From positions 1-54,943 of the forward strand of contig JAJQAH010000008.1 of NCBI GenBank assembly GCA_021203885.1: a stretch of DNA of 54,943 bases. Reading direction: 5' to 3'. The notes under the pieces were generated by a model. That model saw only the letters and a list, made by a program, of their open reading frames with translations. It was not told the DNA's origin and did not search any database. Made by a program: the position numbers and the translations under genes. Shown in pieces: positions 35,169-54,320 of this stretch (within the stretch, counting starts at the first letter, position 1; every line of letters starts with the position of its first letter). Source of the stretch: Oscillospiraceae bacterium. Lineage in GTDB: Bacteria > Bacillota > Clostridia > Oscillospirales > Oscillospiraceae.

Positions 35169-38100
35169 TTATACTTCAACCGTTCCCACATACACATTGT
35201 AAGCGCCGCCGGTCATGAGGACGGTGCCGTCGTCCCTGTATCGTACGGTCAGATCACCGCCGCTGAGGCTGACCAGAATCGGCTCATTATAGTCACAGTG
35301 GCCGTTCTTGACGGCGGCCACAACCGCCGCACAGGCGCCCGTACCGCAGGCCAGCGTCTCGCCGGTGCCGCGCTCCCATACGCGCACTTTCAGAGTATGG
35401 TCATTGACGACCTGTACGAATTCGGCATTGACCCGTTCGGGGAAGATCTCATTGTGTTCAAACTGGGGACCGACCCGCTGCAGATCCAGTGCCTCCACTT
35501 CACGGCAGAAGACCACGCAGTGGGGGTTGCCCATGGAGACGCAGGTGATCTGATAGGCCTCGCCTCCTATGACCACCGGATAGTCCACCACTTCATCGCC
35601 GCTGAGGGAGACCGGGATCTGTGACGGACTCATTTCCGCCTTGCCCATATCGCCCTCAACCTGGATGACGTGGCCTTCCTGGGTGATCACCCGCATGGTC
35701 CGGACGCCCGCCGGCGTCTCCAGGCAGATCGTGCGGTTTTTCACGTTGCGGATGTCGTATAAATATTTGGCCACGCACCGCATGGCGTTGCCGCTGACTC
35801 CGCCGTCGCTGCCGTCGGCGTTATACATGATGACCTTCGCGTCGGCCACCTCGGAGGGGTACATCAGTACGATCCCGTCGCTGCCGATGCCCCAGTGCCT
35901 GTCCGAGAGGGACACAGCCATGGACTCCGGGGAGGAGACCTCCTGCTCGAAGCAGTCGATATAGATATAATCGTTCCCGCAGGTCTGCATCTTGACGAAG
36001 TCCAGCTTTTTCACCTGATCGCTGGTGTGGTTGATATCCACCAGACTCGTGCTGTATTCGCTGAACCGGCTCATCAGACTGTCGGCCAGGGCGTTGGCGG
36101 TGTCGACGCTGGTCATGCAGGGAATGCCCAGCGCACAGGCCCTGCGGCGCATCCGCACGCTGTCTCTTGCGGGTATGCGGCCTCTGGTGGATGTGGACAG
36201 GATATATTTGACCTTTCCGCTCTCCATCAGGGTGACCGTATTATCCTCACTCTCATGGATCTTATTGACCGTGATGGGATGCAGGCCGGCGGCCTCCAGC
36301 GCCTTGGCCGTGCCGCTGGTCGCATACAGCTGAAAGCCGAGCTTTGCAAATTTCCGGCCAATGTTCGCCACCTCGTGTTTGTCGCTGTCCCGGACGGTGA
36401 TCAAAACACCGCCATCCTTGTACATCTGGTATCCGGCGGCCACAAGGCCCTTATACAGAGCCTCCTGCAGCGTCTTCGCCACGCCCAGGACCTCACCGGT
36501 GGATTTCATTTCCGGACCCAGCTGGGTATCCACGCCGCTGAGCTTCTCAAAGGAGAAGACGGGTACTTTCACGGCCACATGGGGCGGCGATTTGTGCAGG
36601 CCGGTTCCGTAGCCCAGATCTTCCAGCTTCTCACCCAGGCTGACCCGCAGTGCCAGATCGACCATGGGAATGCCGGTGACCTTGCTCAGATAGGGGACGG
36701 TGCGGGAAGCCCGGGGATTGACCTCGATGACATAGATGTTGTCGTTCTGGATGATATACTGCAGATTGATGATCCCGATCGCGTCCAGGCCCTGGCACAG
36801 CTCCTTGGTGATCTTTTCAAGCCGTTCAGCCATATCGTCATCAATGTGGGTGGCGGGATAGACGGCGATGCTGTCGCCGGAATGGATGCCGGTGCGTTCG
36901 ATATGCTCCATGATGCCGGGCATCAGGACATCCTCACCGTCGAAAATGGCGTCCACTTCGATCTCGCGGCCCTCGATGTATTTATCGATCAGGACCGGAT
37001 TTTCGATATTGGTGCTGAGAATGATCGACATGTACTCCCGGATGTCGTCGTCGTTGAAGGCGATGATCATATTCTGGCCGCCCAGCACATACGAGGGCCG
37101 CATCAGGACCGGGTAGCCGATCTCATTGGCGGAGGCCAGCGCCTCCTCGGTCGTCATAATGGTCTGGCCGGCTGCCCGGGAGACACTCAGCCTCTCCAGC
37201 AGTTCGTCGAACCGCTCCCGGTCCTCGGCCATATCGATGCTGTCGGCGCAGGTGCCGATGATCGGGATATTCCGCTTGCTCAGCGCCTTCGTCAGTTTGA
37301 TGGAGGTCTGGCCGCCGAATGCGACCACGACGCCGCAGGGATTTTCCACATTGATGATATCCAGCACGTCCTCCTCGCACAGAGGCTCAAAGTAAAGACG
37401 GTCGCCGATATCGAAGTCGGTGGAGACGGTCTCCGGGTTGTTGTTGATGATGACGACCTCAAAGCCCATCTTCTTCAAGGCGTTGACGCAGTGTACGCTG
37501 GCGTAGTCGAATTCGATCCCCTGACCGATCCGGATCGGGCCGGAGCCCAGGACCACCACGGTCTGCTTTTCGGTCCGGTTCAGGAAAGGGAGGACCTCAT
37601 TCTCTCCGCCGGATTCCGGACTGTTGAACGTTCCGTAAAAGTAGGGGGTGGTGGCGGCAAATTCGCCGCTGCAGGTATCGACCATCTTATAGGTGGGCGT
37701 CAGGTGTTCGGGAAGTTCAAAGCCGGAGAAAGAGGCAAGGGCGTGGTCCGTGTACCCAAGCTTTTTGCCCTCGTAATATTCCTCGTCCGTCAGTTTCTTT
37801 CCCGTGATCCTGTTTTCATAATCCACCAGGTTCAGCATTTTATACAGGAACCACCGGTCGATCTTTGTCGTCTGATACAGGGTATCCACATCCACGCCCC
37901 GCAGCAGCGCTTCATAGATATAAAACATGCGCAGGTCCGTAGGCTCACTGAGCTTTTCCATCAGCTCCTCATCACTGAGCTCCTGCAGATCCGGAGAGCG
38001 CATGGTTTCATGGGAGATCTCGGCTCCGCGGACCGCCTTCATCAGCGCGGATTCGAAGCTGTCGGAGATCGCCAGAACTTCGCCGGTGGCTTTCATCTGG

Positions 38101-44208: not shown

Positions 44209-44793
44209 CTAACGGTCATAGGTGCGGATAATACTTTCGGCGACCTCCCTGCGGGGGATCCTCCCGTCCATCGCGCGTTTTTCAATAAAATAATGCGCAT
44301 CGCTTTCGCTCATGTTCAGCTTGTCAATCAGGATCCATTTGGCCCGGTTGACCGCACGGATATCCTCCATCTTCCGCTGGAGGGATTTATTCTTGTTTTC
44401 CATTTTCTGCAGCCGGTAGCTCAGCGCGGACAACAGCCGGACGGAACTATAGTAGTTCTGCCTGGAATTCGGCTTTGAAAGGGTCAAAACCCCGCTGCTT
44501 TCCAGGCGGAAAGAAGTCTGCTCGTAAGCGTCCAGCTTTACCAGCAGAAGAACGGCCACGCAGCTTTCAGCCTGATCCAGCGCCAGATCGTCCCCGAATT
44601 CATCGGGCAGGGGAGCGTCGACGAGAAGAATATCGATCTCCAGCTCCATTAATTTTTGCCGTGCTTCACCAGCGCTGTGCGCCCGTACGACCGGAAAATA
44701 TTCCGGAAGCGCCAGCAGATCGGAAAAATATTCGAACATTTTGTCGCTGCCTGTCGCCAGCAGGATTCTCTGGCGTTTTTCGTGTGTACTCAT
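44209..44793 (-). CDS. Receiver-like + ANTAR domain regulator (RNA-binding antiterminator family)
   Basis: C-terminal VNRAKWILIDKLNMSESDAHYFIEKRAMDGRIPRREVAESIIRTY matches ANTAR; N-terminal receiver-like fold lacking the acidic pair. Confidence 0.88.
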   Translation of the reverse strand: MSTHEKRQRILLATGSDKMFEYFSDLLALPEYFPVVRAHSAGEARQKLMELEIDILLVDAPLPDEFGDDLALDQAESCVAVLLLVKLDAYEQTSFRLESSGVLTLSKPNSRQNYYSSVRLLSALSYRLQKMENKNKSLQRKMEDIRAVNRAKWILIDKLNMSESDAHYFIEKRAMDGRIPRREVAESIIRTYDR

Positions 44794-44803
44794 CTTGCCA
44801 CAC

Positions 44804-46012
44804 TTACTCTCCTAATTCTTCAAAAAACCTCTCAGGCAGGATTCCCTGTATAAATGCGCTGCTGCGGGCTGCTTTGACGGCGTCATTAAGCTTGCCGGGC
44901 AGCTCGGTGTAGCTCTCGAGCATATCCGGCGGTGCGTACAGAAGGTTCAGGCTCGTTTCATCCGGCAGTTGCAGTTCCCGCTCCAATCCGTCCAGCCCCG
45001 CATAGATCAGCAGCGCGTAGGTCAGATAGGGGTTGGCCATGGGATCCGGGGAACAGAGGATGAATTCGGAAATGTCCATATCTTTTGACTGAATCTGAAG
45101 AAGCGTGGTGCGGTTCGAACGCCCCCATGATATGTATTTGGGCGCCTTCCGGTGCCCGAGACGAAGATAGGATTCAGCCAGAGGATTGAAAAATGCGGTC
45201 ATTTCCTCAATATGATCCAGAATGCCGGCCATAAAGCCGGGGATGATATCCTGTCCGTCCGAACTCTTCGGAGAAATAAGAATATGGAAACTGTTGCCGC
45301 TCTCTTCCGGCAGCGGTTTCGGCGAAAAATCTGCGCACAGCCCGTTCTGTACAGCAACCGCCTGCACGACGTTCGTGAAATTTACGGCGTTATCCGCAGC
45401 GGTGACCGCGTCGCTGCCTGCAAAATCGATCTCGTTCTGCCCGGGGCCCTCCTCGTGACGGGAGCTGAGAGCCTGAATTTCCATCTCGTCTAAAGTCAGG
45501 CAGATCTCTCTCCGAATATTCTCACCGCGGTCTTCCGGAGATGTATCCATATAGCCGGCGGAGTCAAGAGGGGTCTTCGTCGGAAATCCCTGATCATCTC
45601 TCTGAAACAGGTAGAATGTGATCTCGCATCCGAAGTCGACGGAGATGTTTTTGGCACCGGCTGCCTCGACCGCCTTTTCCAGGATAACCCGGCTGTCCAG
45701 TTCGAACGGCGTTCCATCCTCATAACAGAGATGGCAGAACATGCGGACGACTTTTCCGTGCGCGGAGCGCCAGGGAAGAGTGGTCAGAGTGGAAGGTATG
45801 GGGAAAAGATAAAGATCCGGACACAGTTCATCGTCAAATCCCGGGACAGCGGAGGCATCCAGATGAATGCCTTTTTCAAAAGCCTGCGACAACAGACTCG
45901 GATTGATAGCCATGTTCCGCTGACGGCCAGTCGGGTCGCAGAATGCCAGCCGGATAAACCGCACATCCTCCTGTTCAACGTATTCCATGACTTCTTCTTC
46001 GGTATATTTCAT
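44804..46012 (-). CDS. glnA: Divergent glutamine synthetase-family protein (GSI-like)
   Basis: EITFYLF, EEGPGQNEIDF, SPDPMANPYL; about 402 aa from MKYTEEEVMEYV; conserved active-site residues substituted. Confidence 0.85.
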   Translation of the reverse strand: MKYTEEEVMEYVEQEDVRFIRLAFCDPTGRQRNMAINPSLLSQAFEKGIHLDASAVPGFDDELCPDLYLFPIPSTLTTLPWRSAHGKVVRMFCHLCYEDGTPFELDSRVILEKAVEAAGAKNISVDFGCEITFYLFQRDDQGFPTKTPLDSAGYMDTSPEDRGENIRREICLTLDEMEIQALSSRHEEGPGQNEIDFAGSDAVTAADNAVNFTNVVQAVAVQNGLCADFSPKPLPEESGNSFHILISPKSSDGQDIIPGFMAGILDHIEEMTAFFNPLAESYLRLGHRKAPKYISWGRSNRTTLLQIQSKDMDISEFILCSPDPMANPYLTYALLIYAGLDGLERELQLPDETSLNLLYAPPDMLESYTELPGKLNDAVKAARSSAFIQGILPERFFEELGE

Positions 46013-46102
46013 GATTTTTCTCCTCTCGGAACGCCAGTAACGCAACCCGTATATACAAAATGAAAGGATGCCTGGCGAATTTTGGGACATTCCCTGCTGG
46101 CC

Positions 46103-46120
46103 AAAAACACCCTCGTTTTT
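46103..46120 (-). promoter_or_regulatory. 5' leader hairpin with hexaloop GAGGGU in the glnA-like transcript
   Basis: AAAAAC-GAGGGT-GTTTTT perfect 6-bp stem near the predicted 5' end. Confidence 0.5.
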
Positions 46121-46295: not shown

Positions 46296-46330
46296 GGGCA
46301 TAGAAAAATGAAAGGGGCTTAACGCGTAAA

Positions 46331-47179
46331 ATGGCTGAAACACTTTTAAAGGTCAGCTCACTGGATGTCCGGGCGGGGGAAAAGAATATCCTGCATGGGG
46401 TTGATCTGAGCATAAAAGACGGAGAGACCCATGTGCTCATGGGCCCGAACGGAGCCGGAAAATCTACGCTGGGCTTTGCTCTTATGGGCTCACCCCGCTA
46501 TGAGATCACTTCCGGCAGCATCACATTTGACGGAGAGGACGTGACTTCGGAAAGTGCGGATAAACGGGCACGGGCCGGCATGTTTCTCTCCTTCCAGGAG
46601 CCGCTGGAGGTGCCGGGGCTGTCGCTGGAATCTTTTCTGCGCAGCGTGATCGTGCAGCGGACCGGAAAGGCTGTACGCAGAAAGGAGTTTAAACAGAAGC
46701 TGGAGGACTCCATGAATCTGCTGCAGATCGACCGCTCGTATGCATCCCGGGATCTGAATGTCGGGTTTTCGGGCGGCGAAAAGAAAAAGATCGAGATCCT
46801 GCAGATGCTGATGTTAGAGCCGAAGCTGGCCATCCTGGATGAGACCGATTCCGGTCTGGACGTGGATGCGGTCAGGCTGGTCTCCGATGGGATCCGGGCG
46901 TATCAGGAGCAGAAAAAGGGAGCCCTGCTGGTGATCACCCACAGTACGCGCATCCTGGATTCCCTGCATGTGGACCGGACGCATGTGATGGTGGACGGCC
47001 GCATCGCGGCGGAGGGAGACGCATCCGTCGTGGAGCGCATCAACGCAGGCGGGTATGAACAGTTCCAAAGTCCTGCCTCGGGCGAAGTATGCCGGGAAAT
47101 TCCGACGGACCGGAGTCCGGCGAATAATAAATCGGAAAGGATCACGGAGTATGGCGGAGAAAGAAAAAACGAGGGTTGA
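46331..47179 (+). CDS. sufC: Fe-S cluster assembly ATPase SufC
   Basis: ABC ATPase GPNGAGKSTLGFALMG, FSGGEKKKIEILQML. Confidence 0.96.
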   Translation: MAETLLKVSSLDVRAGEKNILHGVDLSIKDGETHVLMGPNGAGKSTLGFALMGSPRYEITSGSITFDGEDVTSESADKRARAGMFLSFQEPLEVPGLSLESFLRSVIVQRTGKAVRRKEFKQKLEDSMNLLQIDRSYASRDLNVGFSGGEKKKIEILQMLMLEPKLAILDETDSGLDVDAVRLVSDGIRAYQEQKKGALLVITHSTRILDSLHVDRTHVMVDGRIAAEGDASVVERINAGGYEQFQSPASGEVCREIPTDRSPANNKSERITEYGGERKNEG

Positions 47180-48563
47180 GGATATCAACCGCAGCATCTA
47201 TGATATCGCCAATGAAAACGTAGATTCGTTTCAGGTTGAGGCCGGGCTGACAAAAGATATCGTGGAGCAGATATCCAGGGAGAAAAACGACCCGGAATGG
47301 ATGCACGATTTCCGTATGAATGCGCTGGATATTTACAATGCCACAGATTTGCCCGACTGGGGTCCGTCCTTGGACGGTCTGGATATGGATCATATCGTTG
47401 CCTATGTCCGGCCGAACACGACAATGAGTGCGAAATGGGCGGATGTGCCCAAGGATATCAAGGATACGTTCGAACGCCTGGGCATCCCCCAGGCGGAGCG
47501 CGAGTCGCTGGCGGGTGTGGGCGCTCAGTTCGATTCGGAACTGGTTTATCATAACGTAAAGGACGAGGTCGAGGCGCAGGGCGTGGTCTACTCGGATATT
47601 GAGAGCGCACTGCACGGACCGTACGCCGGTATGATCCGGGACCATTTCATGACACTGCTGACCCCGCGGGATCACAAGTTCCAGGCACTGCACGGAGCTG
47701 TCTGGTCCGGCGGCTCGTTCGTATATGTACCGAAGGGTGTGAAGGTGGAGATCCCGCTGCAGTCCTATTTCCGCCTGAATGCGCCGGGTGCCGGCCAGTT
47801 TGAGCATACGCTGATCATCGTGGACGAGGGCGCCGATCTGCACTTTATAGAGGGGTGCTCCGCACCCAAGTACAATGTGGCGAATCTACATGCGGGCAGC
47901 GTGGAGCTGTTTGTGGGAAAGAACGCCAGGCTTCGCTACTCGACCATCGAGAGCTGGTCAAAAAACATGTACAACCTGAACAGCAAGAGAGCACTGGTGG
48001 AGGAGGGGGGCACCATGGAATGGGTGTCCGGCTCCTTCGGTTCCCATGTCTCCTATCTGTACCCCATGACGATCCTGAAGGGAAAGGGATCCCGGATGGA
48101 GTTTACGGGGATCACGTTTGCCGGGAAAGGGCAGGATCTGGACACGGGCATGAAGGTGGTGCACGCCGCGGAGGACACCTCGTCGGTGGTCCACACCCGG
48201 TCCATTTCAAAGGACGGCGGTGCAAGCACGTTCCGCAGTTCGGTCGTCATTGAAGAAAAAGCGGCGCGCAGCAAGACATCCGTGTCATGCCAGTCGCTGA
48301 TGCTGGATTCCGTATCCCGGTCCGATACGATCCCGGCCATGGATATACGTGCGGGAGACGCCGATGTGGGCCACGAGGCTAAAATAGGCAGGATCAGCGA
48401 CGAGGCCGTTTTTTATCTGATGTCAAGGGGCATAGAAGAAGAGGAAGCGAAGGCCATGATCGTAGGCGGATTCGCGGACAATGTTTCCAAGGAACTGCCG
48501 CTGGAATATGCGGCGGAGATGAATAACCTGATCCGTATGGAGATGGTGGGCAGCATCGGCTGA
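47151..48563 (+). CDS. sufB: Fe-S cluster assembly protein SufB
   Basis: AVWSGGSFVYVPKGVKVEIPLQSYFRLN; ATG refined to MAEKEKTRVEDINRS. Confidence 0.97.
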   Translation: MAEKEKTRVEDINRSIYDIANENVDSFQVEAGLTKDIVEQISREKNDPEWMHDFRMNALDIYNATDLPDWGPSLDGLDMDHIVAYVRPNTTMSAKWADVPKDIKDTFERLGIPQAERESLAGVGAQFDSELVYHNVKDEVEAQGVVYSDIESALHGPYAGMIRDHFMTLLTPRDHKFQALHGAVWSGGSFVYVPKGVKVEIPLQSYFRLNAPGAGQFEHTLIIVDEGADLHFIEGCSAPKYNVANLHAGSVELFVGKNARLRYSTIESWSKNMYNLNSKRALVEEGGTMEWVSGSFGSHVSYLYPMTILKGKGSRMEFTGITFAGKGQDLDTGMKVVHAAEDTSSVVHTRSISKDGGASTFRSSVVIEEKAARSKTSVSCQSLMLDSVSRSDTIPAMDIRAGDADVGHEAKIGRISDEAVFYLMSRGIEEEEAKAMIVGGFADNVSKELPLEYAAEMNNLIRMEMVGSIG

Positions 48564-48576
48564 GGGAGGAACACGG

Positions 48577-49740
48577 ATGGGAATAAAGAAAATAAAGGTC
48601 AACAAGCTGCCTTCCGTCACCTGGCACTGGACCGGAATGAATGACGCAGATCTTGATATCGACCTGTCCGGCGATGCTCCTTTGTACACGCTGCGAGGAC
48701 AGTCAGAGGGCATGAGATGGATCGATGATCTGAATTCCGCGGACGGCCGGATGGAGGAGATCCTGCGGCGGCCGGGATGGGAACAGACGGAGACCGGAAT
48801 GGGAACTGAATTCGCCGATGCCATGCGGGAAACGCCGGGTGCGCTTCTGGATATTCCGGAAGGAGACAAAGGGAATGGGCCGGTGGTGATCACTGCCGAA
48901 GCCCGTGACGGCCGGTGCGCCGGTCAGATACTGATCCGCGCCGGAGCGGGCAGTGATTCTGACGTGGTCGTTGTGATCGGCAGTGAAAAGCAGACCGGCA
49001 CCGATCAGGACACGGTGGCCGTTCAGATATTGATCCAGACAGAAATGGACGCGGACCTGCGGCTGTTCGTGGTGCAGGATCTTCCGCAGAAGGGAATCAG
49101 CTGCCTGAATCTGGGGGGCGTGTGCGGCGAAAGAGCGAAAATCGAATGGACCCATCTCTCGCTGGGCGCCGGCAGGGCATTCATCGGAGCCGCCATGGAG
49201 CTGTCCGGCGATGACAGCGTCTTTCATGGTGAGACGGGTTATCGTGTCCGATCCGGTCAGAACGTGGATATCAATTATGTATGCAGGCACTGCGGCAGGA
49301 GATCCGTCAGTAACCTGAACGCGTGGGGTGTGCTGGAAGACGGTTCCGTCAAACTGTTCCGCGGCACGATCGACTTTCACGAGGGCTGCAGCGGATCTGT
49401 CGGCGCCGAAAAGGAAGATGTGCTTCTGCTCGGAAAGAACCAGATCAATAAGACGATCCCGCTGATCCTCTGCCATGAGGAAGATGTGGAAGGGGATCAC
49501 GGTGCCACCATCAGCCGGCTGGACGAACAGATGCTTTTTTATCTGGCCAGCAGGGGACTGGATGCCGGGTATGCCGAGAATATGATCGCCCGGGCAAGGC
49601 TGGATGCGCTGTGTGAAAAAATTCCGGATTCTGAGATCCGTTCGGAGGCAGAGAAAAAGATCCGCTTTGAGCCTGTGATCTCGGGCGGCATCCGTTCGGA
49701 CGCGGACGGCCGGAGCGGGGAAGGGGAAGACGGCCCATGA
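48577..49740 (+). CDS. sufD: SufD-family Fe-S assembly protein
   Basis: SufB/SufD C-terminal pattern DHGATISRLDEQMLFYLASRGLD; between sufB and sufS. Confidence 0.92.
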   Translation: MGIKKIKVNKLPSVTWHWTGMNDADLDIDLSGDAPLYTLRGQSEGMRWIDDLNSADGRMEEILRRPGWEQTETGMGTEFADAMRETPGALLDIPEGDKGNGPVVITAEARDGRCAGQILIRAGAGSDSDVVVVIGSEKQTGTDQDTVAVQILIQTEMDADLRLFVVQDLPQKGISCLNLGGVCGERAKIEWTHLSLGAGRAFIGAAMELSGDDSVFHGETGYRVRSGQNVDINYVCRHCGRRSVSNLNAWGVLEDGSVKLFRGTIDFHEGCSGSVGAEKEDVLLLGKNQINKTIPLILCHEEDVEGDHGATISRLDEQMLFYLASRGLDAGYAENMIARARLDALCEKIPDSEIRSEAEKKIRFEPVISGGIRSDADGRSGEGEDGP

Positions 49741-50948
49741 GGGACTGCAGAAAGGATTTTAAGATCTTTCAGGACCGGGATATCGTCTACCTGGATAATG
49801 CCGCCACCACACAGAGACCGGAACCCGTGCTGGAGGCGGAGAGGAAATTTTACGAACAGGACAATGCGAATCCTTTCCGCGGCCTGTATGAGCTGGGCGT
49901 TAAGGCCACGGAGGAATATGAAAAAAGCCGCGCCCGGACGGCCAGGTTCATCCATGCGGAGAGGCCCGAGGAGATCGTATTCACCCGCAATACGACAGAG
50001 AGCATCAATCTGGTCAGTTACAGTTATGCCTCCAGTTTTTTGAAACCCGGTGATGAGATCCTGATCACCATCGCGGAACACCACAGCAACCTTCTTCCCT
50101 GGCAGGCGGCTGCCCGCCGGACGGGAGCGGTGCTGAAATATCTGGAATGTGACGGGGACGGATCGTTTTCAAGGGAGAGCATAGAGGAGGCCGTGACACC
50201 CCGCACGAAGCTGGCCGCCATATGCCACATTTCCAATGTGACCGGCCGGGTTACACCGGTGGAGGAGATCATCCGCCTTGTGCATGCCGCCGGCGGCATA
50301 GTGCTCGTCGATGCGGCCCAGAGCGCTCCGCATATGCTCCTGGACGTGCAGGAGATGGACTGTGATTTTCTGGCGTTCTCGGGCCACAAGATGTTCGGGC
50401 CCATGGGAATCGGCGTGCTGTACGGTAAATTTGATCTTCTGAACGCCATGCCGCCGTTTCTGACCGGCGGGGAGATGATCGATTCTGTGTCCAGAGACAG
50501 CGCCGTCTGGGCGCCGGTCCCGCACAAATTTGAAGCGGGAACGGTAAACGCGGCGGGCGCCGTCGGGCTGGCGGCGGCCATGGATTATCTGGATGAACTC
50601 GGACGGTATGAGATGGAGACACATCTGAAAGAGCTGACAGGTATGGCACTGGAGGGAATGAGCCGGATACCCGGTCTTCATATCATCGGAAGTGCGGATC
50701 CGGGGGAACATACCGGGATCCTCAGTTTCACTGTGGACGGCGTGCATCCGCACGATATCGCGTCCATTCTGGACGCGTCGGATATCGACATCCGGGCGGG
50801 CCATCACTGTGCGATGCCTCTTCTGAATCATCTGGGGATGCGCTCCTGCGCCAGAGCCAGCATCGCCGCATATAATTCTCAGGAAGATATCCAGCGGCTG
50901 GTCAGCTGCCTGGAGACGGTCAGGGGGCTGATGGGTTATGGAGAATAA
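49737..50948 (+). CDS. sufS: Cysteine desulfurase SufS
   Basis: YLDNAATTQRPEPVLEA; FSGHKMFGPMGIGVLYGK; RAGHHCAMPL active-site Cys. Confidence 0.96.
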   Translation: MRDCRKDFKIFQDRDIVYLDNAATTQRPEPVLEAERKFYEQDNANPFRGLYELGVKATEEYEKSRARTARFIHAERPEEIVFTRNTTESINLVSYSYASSFLKPGDEILITIAEHHSNLLPWQAAARRTGAVLKYLECDGDGSFSRESIEEAVTPRTKLAAICHISNVTGRVTPVEEIIRLVHAAGGIVLVDAAQSAPHMLLDVQEMDCDFLAFSGHKMFGPMGIGVLYGKFDLLNAMPPFLTGGEMIDSVSRDSAVWAPVPHKFEAGTVNAAGAVGLAAAMDYLDELGRYEMETHLKELTGMALEGMSRIPGLHIIGSADPGEHTGILSFTVDGVHPHDIASILDASDIDIRAGHHCAMPLLNHLGMRSCARASIAAYNSQEDIQRLVSCLETVRGLMGYGE

Positions 50949-51387
50949 GACTTTTTACAACGGGGCCCTGAATGAGCATAATCTCCATCCGTACCATAAG
51001 GAAAAACTGTCGGATGCGAATCTCGTCCTGGAGGGAGTCAACCCTTCCTGCGGGGATGATATCATACTCCAGCTGAAGGTCGTGGACGGTGTCATTGAAG
51101 ACGGCTCGTTCGTGGGTGACGGCTGCGCCGTATCACAGGCCTCGGCAGACATTATGCTGGATATGATCATCGGGGAGACGAAAGAGGAGGCTCTGCGGCT
51201 TGCCGATATCTTCATCCGGATGATCACCGGGGAAGTGACGGAGGAGGAGCTGGATGAGCTGGACGAGGCAGCTGCACTGAAAGATATTGCTCATATGCCC
51301 TCACGGGTAAAATGCGCCGTTCTTGGATGGCACACCATGCAGGAAATGCTCGGAAAGGAACAGGACGGACCTACAAGTATGCAATGA
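50938..51387 (+). CDS. sufU: SufU-type Fe-S scaffold/sulfur acceptor
   Basis: NPSCGDD, GCAVSQASADIML, RVKCAVLGWHTMQEML. Confidence 0.93.
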   Translation: MENKTFYNGALNEHNLHPYHKEKLSDANLVLEGVNPSCGDDIILQLKVVDGVIEDGSFVGDGCAVSQASADIMLDMIIGETKEEALRLADIFIRMITGEVTEEELDELDEAAALKDIAHMPSRVKCAVLGWHTMQEMLGKEQDGPTSMQ

Positions 51388-51421
51388 AGGAAGCAAAGAT
51401 TTTCATCGGGAGGGGAACGGC

Positions 51422-51871
51422 ATGGCCGAGGTTTTAGCTGTCTGTACCAGCGAGAGAAAAGGAATACAGAAGCGTCCCGTGGACGAGGTACAGCTGCGGG
51501 AGGAGTACGGAATCATAGGAGATGCCCATGCAGGGAACTGGCACCGCCAGGTCAGCCTGCTGGGCGTCGAGAGCGTGCGGAAGATGCAGGAACGGATATC
51601 GATTCCGCTGAAACCGGGTGATTTCGCAGAAAATATACTGACCGAGGGGATCACTTTATATGAACTGCCGGTGGGCACCCGACTGCGGATCGGGGATGTG
51701 GAGTGCGAGATCACCCAGATCGGGAAGGAGTGTCACGCGGACTGCGCGATCCGGAAGCAGACGGGTTACTGCGTTATGCCCACGGAGGGGATCTTTGTGC
51801 GAATCCTGAATCCCGGCACGATCCGTGCCGGCGACGAAATCTCCGTACTGGACACGCCGGCGCAGGCATGA
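51422..51871 (+). CDS. MOSC domain-containing protein
   Basis: GDAHAGNWHRQVSLL...GKECHADCAIRKQTGYCVMPTEGIFVRIL. Confidence 0.88.
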   Translation: MAEVLAVCTSERKGIQKRPVDEVQLREEYGIIGDAHAGNWHRQVSLLGVESVRKMQERISIPLKPGDFAENILTEGITLYELPVGTRLRIGDVECEITQIGKECHADCAIRKQTGYCVMPTEGIFVRILNPGTIRAGDEISVLDTPAQA

Positions 51872-52019: not shown

Positions 52020-52048
52020 TTGACTTTTGCAAGTTCAAATGCTAGAAT
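52020..52048 (+). promoter_or_regulatory. Predicted sigma-A promoter for glnN
   Basis: TTGACT - 17 nt - TAGAAT, giving a leader of about 170 nt. Confidence 0.75.
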
Positions 52049-52125
52049 ATTCACGTCAGGTGACAAGGTGGTCATGGGCGTTCTATTTTTGCGCCTATGG
52101 CTTTAAATTTATGAGCCGATGATTA

Positions 52126-52158
52126 AGCGACAAGGGTGTCGTTATGGAAAGTTCCATA
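52126..52158 (+). promoter_or_regulatory. Candidate ANTAR-target RNA (two adjacent A1/G4 hexaloop hairpins) in the glnN leader
   Basis: AGCGAC-AAGGGU-GUCGUU followed by UAUGG-AAAGUU-CCAUA. Confidence 0.5.
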
Positions 52159-52223
52159 ATTCCCTTGTCGCTTGAATATTATAGGCAGCATTTTGCTGGC
52201 CTAAGAAAAGGAGTGTCTATTCT

Positions 52224-54320
52224 ATGAGCGACTCGGTTACCGAAATTTACGGCGAATTAGTTTTCAATGACGGTGTCATGCAGAAGCGCCTGCCAAAGGA
52301 GACATACAAAGCGCTTCAGCGGACAATTAAGGAAGGAAAACCTCTGGAAAAATCTGTAGCCACTATTGTCGCTAACACCATGAAAGACTGGGCCATCGAG
52401 AACGGTGCGACACATTACACCCACTGGTTCCAGCCTATGACTGGTGTGACCGCAGAAAAGCACGACAGTTTTATCACCCCCATCAGCAACGGAAAGGTGA
52501 TCATGGAGTTTTCCGGAAAGGAACTGGTTCAGGGCGAACCGGACGCATCCTCGTTCCCGTCCGGAGGTCTCCGTGCCACATTTGAAGCCAGAGGGTACAC
52601 CGCCTGGGATGCCACGTCCTATGCGTTCATCAAGGAAGGTGTCCTGTGCATTCCCACCGTCTTTTACTCTTACGGCGGTGAGGCGCTGGACCAGAAGACG
52701 GCGCTGCTCAGGTCCATGGAGGCCATCAGCAAACAGGCTATCCGGGTGCTGAGACTGTTCGGAAATGAGGAAGTCAAATCCTGCAAGACGACTGTCGGTG
52801 CGGAGCAGGAATATTTCCTGATCGATCGCGATATGTTCGATCGGCGCAAGGACCTGCTGTACACCGGCCGCACGCTGTTCGGCTCCCGTCCCCCGAAAGG
52901 ACAGGAACTGGACGACCACTATTTCGGAGCCATCAAGCCCCGCGTACGCGATTACATGCGTGAGCTGAATTTTGAGCTTTGGAAGTTCGGGATCCCCGCG
53001 AAGACCGAACATAACGAAGTGGCCCCCGCACAGCATGAGATCGCACCCGTTTACAGCTATTCCAACCAGGCCGTGGATCAGAACCAGCTGATGATGGAGC
53101 TGATGCAGAAGATCGCACGGAAACACCACATGGTCTGCCTGCTGCATGAGAAGCCCTTCGACGGCGTGAACGGCAGTGGCAAGCACAACAACTGGTCCAT
53201 CGGGACGGATACCGGGATGAACCTTCTGGACCCCGGCGATACGCCCAGCGAGAATGCGCAGTTCCTGCTGTTTTTGTGCGCGGTCATCAAGGCCGTGGAC
53301 GAGTACCAGGATCTGCTGCGGATCTCCGTCGCAAGCCCCGGCAACGACCACCGTCTCGGTGCTAATGAGGCGCCCCCGGCGATCATTTCGATCTTCGTGG
53401 GCGATGAGCTTTACGCGATCCTGGAGGCCCTCGAACAAGACAAGGAGTACGGGACCAAGGAGAAGGAAGTCCTGCGGGTCGGTGTTCATACGCTTCCTTC
53501 GTTCAGAAAGGACGATACCGACCGGAACCGGACATCCCCGTTCGCATTTACCGGCAGCAAGTTTGAGTTCCGTATGCCCGGCGCCGCCATGTCCATCGCG
53601 CCGTTCAACATGGTGCTGAACACAGCGGTCGCAGAAGAGCTGAGGCAGTTTGCGGATGAACTGGAAGGCGTCGAAGACTTTGAGCAGGGCCTGCATGATC
53701 TGATCCAGCGCGTGATCCATGAGCATAAGAGGATCCTGTTCAACGGGGACGGCTACGATGAGTCCTGGCAGGTGGAGGCCGAGAAACGCGGCCTTTTAAA
53801 TCTGCGTACCACGCCGGATGCCGTTGCGCATCTTCTGGATGAAAAGAACGTCAAGCTGTTCGAGACACATCATGTCTATTCGCCCACCGAGCTGAATGCC
53901 CGGTACGAGGTCCGCATGGATAATTACGTAAAGGTCCTGAATATCGAAGCTCTGTCCATGCTGGACATGGCAAACAAGGATATCCTGCCGGCCATGAGCG
54001 CGTACAGCAAGCAGCTGGCGGATGCCGTCCTGCAGAAGAGCTCCGTATCAGACGACGTCGACTGCGTGTATGAAAAGGAGATGCTGCGCAAGATCAGTTC
54101 CATGATCTCCGCCATGCATAAGGCTTCCGACAAGCTGGAGGAGGACCTCCTGAACGCAAAGAGCATCGAGGATCCCGGCGAAGCCGCCTTTTACTTTAAA
54201 GACAATATTTTGCCGGATATGACGGCTCTCCGGATCCCCGCAGACGAAATGGAAACTCTTGTTTCCGCCGAGGCTTGGCCCTATCCGTCCTACGGCTCTA
54301 TGTTGTTCAGTGTACAGTAA
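52224..54320 (+). CDS. glnN: Glutamine synthetase type III
   Basis: 698 aa; [52 protein letters not shown]. Confidence 0.97.

Follow-up and report, generated by a model that had tools for sequence, protein, structure and literature searches.

The RNA target of ANTAR proteins was defined by Ramesh et al. 2012 (PMC3369931) as two hexaloops, and the search in that study used a dual-hairpin model; a survey of actinobacteria (PMC8164766) likewise required two hexaloops. Reported linkers between dual hexaloops measure 5–12 nt in eut and 2–25 nt in actinobacteria, and induction fell drastically once the eutP linker was cut to 3 nt (PMC3369931). Since published ANTAR-target searches required two hexaloops, single-hexaloop elements would have been missed. 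The crystal structure of EutV (Walshe et al. 2022, PMC8934654) identified one hexaloop as the binding unit, while antitermination still required the pair, and the same study called for bioinformatics on single hexaloops. An antiterminator-type regulator linked to glnA, NitR, is on record for Clostridium acetobutylicum, as cited in PMC4676874.

We analysed a stretch of 54,943 nt from an Oscillospiraceae bacterium (hereafter the window), in which a sequence-only reading had proposed two adjacent A1/G4 hexaloop hairpins, located in the leader of the type III glutamine synthetase (GSIII) gene glnN, as a candidate ANTAR RNA target. Hairpin 1 of that pair emerges as a well-supported candidate, on the strength of its conserved loop and covarying stem, of the terminator that excludes it in relatives, of tight co-occurrence with ANTAR genes and of the nitrogen genes downstream, whereas the idea of two adjacent hexaloops did not survive. 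We put the probability at roughly 80% that a NitR-like ANTAR protein binds a single hexaloop and prevents termination, in the service of a nitrogen-assimilation regulon.

Organisation of the glnN leader

The promoter and hairpin 1 were both recovered letter by letter as the sequence-only reading had given them, including the one G-U pair in the stem of hairpin 1 (Table 1). Between the end of the −10 box and the first hexaloop stem lie 12 nt. Two tandem elements follow, E1 nearer the promoter and E2 about 65 nt further on, and both were matched by the covariance model R1 described below (E1 at 52057–52113, 27.0 bits; E2 at 52124–52181, 23.8 bits). The first hairpin of each has A1 and G4 in its hexaloop and a stem of ≥3 bp, as the dual-hexaloop definition asks of a single hairpin. 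Only nine C-AANGNN-G hairpins with a stem of ≥4 bp occur in the 55-kb window (both strands), and two of them fall inside the glnN leader of ~170 nt, which is beyond chance.

Table 1 Coordinates of the features discussed in the text (positions within the window).
Feature	Position	Strand	Basis
ANTAR protein, degenerate receiver, NitR-like, proposed antiterminator	44209..44793	-	PF03861
glnA, GSI-type glutamine synthetase, first gene of the operon	44804..46012	-	Pfam; start is the ATG of MKYTEEEV...
E0, variant element in the glnA leader	46056..46120	-	Pattern scan, leader comparison
glnN promoter, TTGACT-17-TAGAAT	52020..52048	+	TTGACT 52020-52025, TAGAAT 52043-52048
E1 antiterminator (putative), single hexaloop hairpin TGAC-AAGGTG-GTCA, A1 and G4	52061..52074	+	Pattern scan, R1 match
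E1 alternative hairpin, 52070-52080 with 52092-52102, then TTTAAATTT	52070..52110	+	Folding
E2 alternative long hairpin, 52123-52136 with 52162-52175, then GAATATTAT	52123..52175	+	Folding
E2 antiterminator (putative), hairpin 1, AGCGAC-AAGGGT-GTCGTT, one G-U pair	52126..52143	+	Sequence, R1 match
Hairpin 2, TATGG-AAAGTT-CCATA, inner helix of the E2 long hairpin	52143..52158	+	Folding, sister comparison
glnN, type III glutamine synthetase, proposed regulated gene	52224..54320	+	Pfam GSIII_N, 266 bits

In E1, the alternative hairpin and the hexaloop hairpin overlap in the 3′ arm of the latter, so that the overlap with an intrinsic terminator is clear here. In E2, the long hairpin sequesters the 5′ arm and the loop of the hexaloop, and the U-tract behind it (GAATATTAT) is weak, so that E2 may terminate poorly in the window. 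At minimum free energy (MFE), 52120–52180 folds into a 14-bp stem around hairpin 2 (−30.6 kcal/mol, z = −8.1), compared with −12.1 kcal/mol when hairpin 1 is enforced and −10.2 kcal/mol when both hexaloops are enforced. Hairpin 1 and the long stem are mutually exclusive and thus give the layout of an attenuator, one whose U-tract is poor in the window.

The leader was compared with that of one same-genus genome, the sister species (G001, locus L018). There, hairpin 1 has the identical loop AAGGGT on a fully Watson–Crick stem, the G-U pair of the window being replaced by G-C, and the core of the E2 long stem is unchanged. The terminator stem of E1 differs by two double compensatory changes (by reading the sequences), and a second strict hexaloop hairpin lies ~65 nt upstream in both genomes. 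A dual match in the sister species, TTTATG-AGCGAT-TGTAAA, was set aside for its G-U closing pairs and for a stem that the window does not keep intact. We also observed a third hairpin, TAGGCAGC...GCTGGCCTA, at 52180–52205 (+), directly before the ribosome-binding site of glnN; in the sister species its sequence is altered and GC-richer, with the pairing kept.

A covarying element family in related genomes

GSIII leaders were gathered from 60 related genomes, with extra regions added. Most ANTAR-positive genomes carry one or two AANGNN hairpins closed by C-G, mostly ≤230 nt upstream of GSIII. In an alignment of 28 elements, the hexaloop stem (P1) is 96% paired and its covariation exceeds that of all 500 shuffles; the terminator stem covaries as well, and the two stems have one arm in common, 5′ in the terminator stem and 3′ in the hexaloop stem. 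Because the aligned elements had been picked for the hexaloop stem, this stem was re-tested with R1, a covariance model containing the terminator stem only and no P1 pairing. Run over 80 named loci outside its training set, R1 returned 62 matches, in which P1 is 89% paired with 66 double-changed cells (0/500 shuffles as high) and 53 of which retain A1/G4 on an unbroken stem of 4 bp. The sequence consensus of R1 came from stem-selected elements, which limits the independence of this control.

The loop invariants are A1, A2 and G4, together with the C-G closing pair. A2 and C-G closure belonged to the search pattern for the full set of 79, which is made up of the aligned elements, one further element of lower quality and those of the named loci; both features were found again in 61–62 of the 62 R1 matches. 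An overlapping hairpin with a U-tract accompanies 66/79 elements, against 11.4 in shuffles. A recognisable promoter was found for 61/79, with the hexaloop stem mostly 8–15 nt behind the −10 box, which leaves no room for an upstream recruitment hexaloop. Some leaders contain tandem repeats, with units ~65–75 nt apart and one terminator each.

The long near-perfect inverted repeat of E2 would also fit an ordinary terminator of an upstream gene, or a DNA operator, without any regulatory hexaloop, and some matches, in ANTAR-positive and ANTAR-negative genomes alike, are plain terminators lacking an intact hexaloop hairpin. However, the elements lie downstream of a promoter, at the short distance given above, and the hexaloop stem covaries independently while its loop is invariant. 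We regard this explanation as extremely improbable. No RNA family in Rfam 15 scored above its gathering threshold in the window or in the loci of 16 relatives; low-score cmscan matches on the E2 inverted repeat were mostly to eukaryotic microRNA models and were dismissed as chance.

One hexaloop or two

A canonical dual-hexaloop ANTAR target composed of hairpins 1 and 2 of E2 would find both strings in place and both loops writable with A1 and G4, and one relative (G031) likewise has an adjoining second hexaloop. The string of hairpin 2 is indeed present at its position, but its hexaloop lacks support: A1 and U6 of AAAGUU can pair, leaving the tetraloop AAGU in the MFE fold, and in the sister species the stem is kept with one compensatory change around a loop of 5 nt (CTATGG-AAGTT-CCATAG). 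The comparison of glnN leaders for compensatory changes, put forward in the sequence-only reading as a check, thus came out for hairpin 1, with its kept loop and covarying stem, and against the loop of hairpin 2. Of the 79 elements, two (E2 of the window and the element of G031) have another A1/G4 hexaloop in the 15 nt downstream, where shuffles give an expectation of 1.0; upstream, the count is 2/79 with 1.2 expected. The two hairpins have zero linker, even tighter than the shortened eutP linker that impaired induction, and forming both hexaloops instead of the long hairpin costs the RNA 20 kcal/mol in stability.

Hairpin 2 was ruled out as a partner hexaloop, given its loop in the sister species and these counts, and a dual target at this site appears very unlikely. 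The locus falls outside the dual-hexaloop class for want of a second loop. The unit is one hexaloop per attenuator, at times in tandem. Its presence before nitrogen genes in many ANTAR-carrying relatives suggests that a single loop suffices for control in place of the textbook pair.

Co-occurrence with ANTAR genes

Among the genomes with a GSIII gene in the 60-genome set, a strict hexaloop was found in the GSIII leader of 21/26 ANTAR-positive and 0/21 ANTAR-negative genomes (P = 5e−9, Fisher test). With one genome per family the numbers become 12/13 versus 0/7 (P = 1e−4), a table that counts operon-level leaders (Amt-GSIII in G037, AsnA-GSIII in G043) and without them gives P = 1.5e−3. Order-wide, R1 matches at E 0.002 occurred in 97/168 ANTAR-positive and 6/127 ANTAR-negative genomes (P = 4e−24). 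The co-occurrence is partly phylogenetic. Three families (f3, f16 and f17) hold both states, and there the matches at E 0.002 are confined to ANTAR-positive members.

These data also bear on whether a real attenuator family could be read by another factor, either an RNA-binding protein or a small molecule, with the ANTAR link reflecting shared ancestry or the nitrogen locus. ANTAR binding to the element is something we infer from sequence; none of the six motif-positive exceptions has an ANTAR match that exceeds the family cut-off, four of these genomes being ≤85% complete, and several ANTAR-positive genomes lack the motif. In the order, 71/168 have no R1 match at E 0.002, which we put down to strict filters and to other ANTAR subfamilies. 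Against another factor stand the A1/G4 hexaloop itself, the published recognition signature of ANTAR proteins (PMC3369931, PMC8934654), the persistence of the association with one genome per family, the joint variation of motif and ANTAR gene inside f3, f16 and f17, and the presence of the element before the ANTAR operon itself in some genomes. Moreover, known riboswitches are larger than a hairpin of ~16 nt, and the element has no match in Rfam. Control by a factor other than ANTAR is therefore unlikely in our estimation, and recognition by an ANTAR protein remains our preferred reading.

The candidate ANTAR protein and the leader of its operon

The sequence-only reading had noted an ANTAR gene about 7.5 kb away. 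We located it ~7.3 kb from the hairpins (PF03861, 55.9 bits; family cut-off 27.3), and it is the sole ANTAR gene found in its own, 71%-complete genome. The closest solved relatives of its product are Rv1626 (1s8n), EutV and AmiR. The protein retains just two of the RNA contacts of EutV, K149 and E160; Arg takes the place of K143 and K147, R142 and R168 are lost (Arg168 to Glu), and the position of Tyr164, which provides aromatic stacking on G4, is His, as in AmiR. The acidic pair by which the receiver was tested as that of an EutV-type phosphorylation-dependent response regulator is absent, and the phospho-acceptor Asp, retained in the protein of the window, is Asn in 17 of 22 NitR-like proteins (by eye). 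For these two reasons, the input is probably not phosphorylation. GlnA or PII as the source of the signal are guesses from gene context.

Two ANTAR subfamilies besides the EutV-like one were observed across the protein of the window and its relatives (L032–L060), a NitR-like one (AHRYIEKQAMD) and a shorter one (AHRFLQK), the latter occurring in several genomes of family f1 with few motif matches.

The leader of the glnA-ANTAR operon contains the variant element E0, whose hexaloop hairpin AAAAAC-GAGGGT-GTTTTT (46120–46103) has G rather than A at position 1, lies at the same distance from its own promoter as in the glnN leader, and overlaps a terminator-like hairpin whose 3′ arm reads GGCATCCTTTC. 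At this place the sister species carries AAAC-AAGGAT-GTTT, and A1/G4 hexaloops are also found in the glnA leaders of G053 and G031. In most other relatives glnA sits close behind another gene, and no such hairpin was seen in their glnA leaders. In total, the window holds three copies of one element, E1, E2 and the variant E0. An R1 search of the genome of the window up to E 10 found no copies beyond E1 and E2 except for a weak match at 37729–37800 (+; 17.4 bits; AAAGAGGCAAGGGCGU...CCGUCAGUUUCUUU), which may have arisen by chance or represent a further element.

The region that separates the glnA-ANTAR operon from glnN carries SUF iron-sulfur cluster genes (sufC, sufB, sufD-like, sufS and sufU-like; 46330–51871, +), followed by a MOSC-like ORF (by eye from translations).

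Genes downstream of the element and its distribution

GSIII is one of several gene types found downstream of the element in relatives. Non-GSIII matches in ANTAR-positive genomes precede genes for ammonium transporters (Amt), most with a C-terminal PII domain, as well as AsnB (G058 and G025), AsnA-GSIII (G043), GlnA-ANTAR (G045), glutamate dehydrogenase (Gdh; G021) and a GltB-like amidotransferase gene (G025). A few precede other genes, namely those for a PPDK_N protein (G043), a GGDEF protein (G015) and a PucR-type regulator (G032). The largest array seen comprises three tandem copies before an Amt-PII fusion gene (L128; G043:C27:52440–52638).

Among the 80 GTDB loci nearest by GSIII, 44 have a strict hexaloop in the leader, including loci of rumen Treponema genomes. 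Isolates with the element include Claveliimonas monacensis DSM 108991 (tandem pair) and Anaerotignum lactatifermentans An390 (one copy). In Herbinix hemicellulosilytica the leader itself has no hexaloop and an R1 match lies ~1.1 kb upstream; several other loci have a match 1.1–1.8 kb upstream, and such positions are consistent with a longer operon. At five loci from Treponema and other spirochaete MAGs (L199, L201, L220, L245, L250), we observed a GSIII 61–72% identical to that of the window together with a hexaloop leader. This suggests either that gene and leader were transferred together or that the MAGs were mis-binned.

Discussion

The hairpin, its alternative, the covariation, the position, the co-occurrence and the gene context are all read directly from DNA sequence, and the attenuator mode of working is well supported. 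Beyond this, we infer ANTAR binding, antitermination and its direction, and a nitrogen signal. The glnN leader would then consist of two tandem transcription attenuators, with a related third in the glnA-ANTAR leader. In each, a single hexaloop hairpin (AANGNN, closed by C-G) would form once the RNA leaves the polymerase. Without the factor, the RNA would refold into the longer hairpin, which consumes part of the hexaloop hairpin and would terminate transcription where a U-tract follows. The ANTAR protein, encoded 7 kb away and predicted to be cotranscribed with glnA, would bind the hexaloop hairpin and hold it, and transcription would proceed into the gene. One hexaloop per attenuator would suffice, no second recruitment hexaloop being conserved, and in relatives the same element would control a nitrogen-assimilation regulon.

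On balance, we lean towards a still broader view, in which a large ANTAR class of gut Clostridia and some Spirochaetes controls a nitrogen regulon through one-hexaloop attenuators, with receivers that mostly cannot be phosphorylated and with tandem single-loop attenuators in place of a dispensable EutV-type recruitment hairpin. Such a system would give a mechanism for the control of glutamine synthetase, ammonium transport and asparagine synthesis in many gut Clostridia. The 2022 EutV-RNA structure left open whether natural single-hexaloop targets exist; the present family supplies many candidates, two cultured species among them, and the question of one loop or two becomes directly testable.

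Searches of an open-access library turned up no previous account of such elements in this order, nor any of attenuation at GSIII. ANTAR targets have been defined as dual and NitR control near glnA is an older proposal, so that the new part would be ANTAR-type antitermination with one loop. The element resembles the single-hexaloop site of Walshe et al. 2022 in being one A1/G4 hexaloop hairpin in an ANTAR-encoding genome, although no natural single-hexaloop regulon was described there (PMC8934654). It shares with NitR of C. acetobutylicum an ANTAR/antiterminator gene beside glnA and a proposed role in nitrogen control; for NitR, no RNA target is described in the sources consulted, and an antisense RNA is also invoked. 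The Desulfotomaculum ANTAR regulons likewise place ANTAR-type elements before nitrogen-metabolism genes, including glutamate synthase, but were identified with a dual-hairpin model and are without the type III glutamine synthetase of the present order (PMC3369931). Finally, eut/EutV of Enterococcus faecalis, nasF/NasR of Klebsiella and amiE/AmiR of Pseudomonas have in common with our locus the six-base loops with A1 and G4, the terminator-exclusive hairpin, the nitrogen genes and an ANTAR protein in the genome. In contrast to these systems, the element described here has one hexaloop, located right where the transcript begins, always closed by C-G and with AA at loop positions 1–2, and often occurs in tandem with separate terminators.
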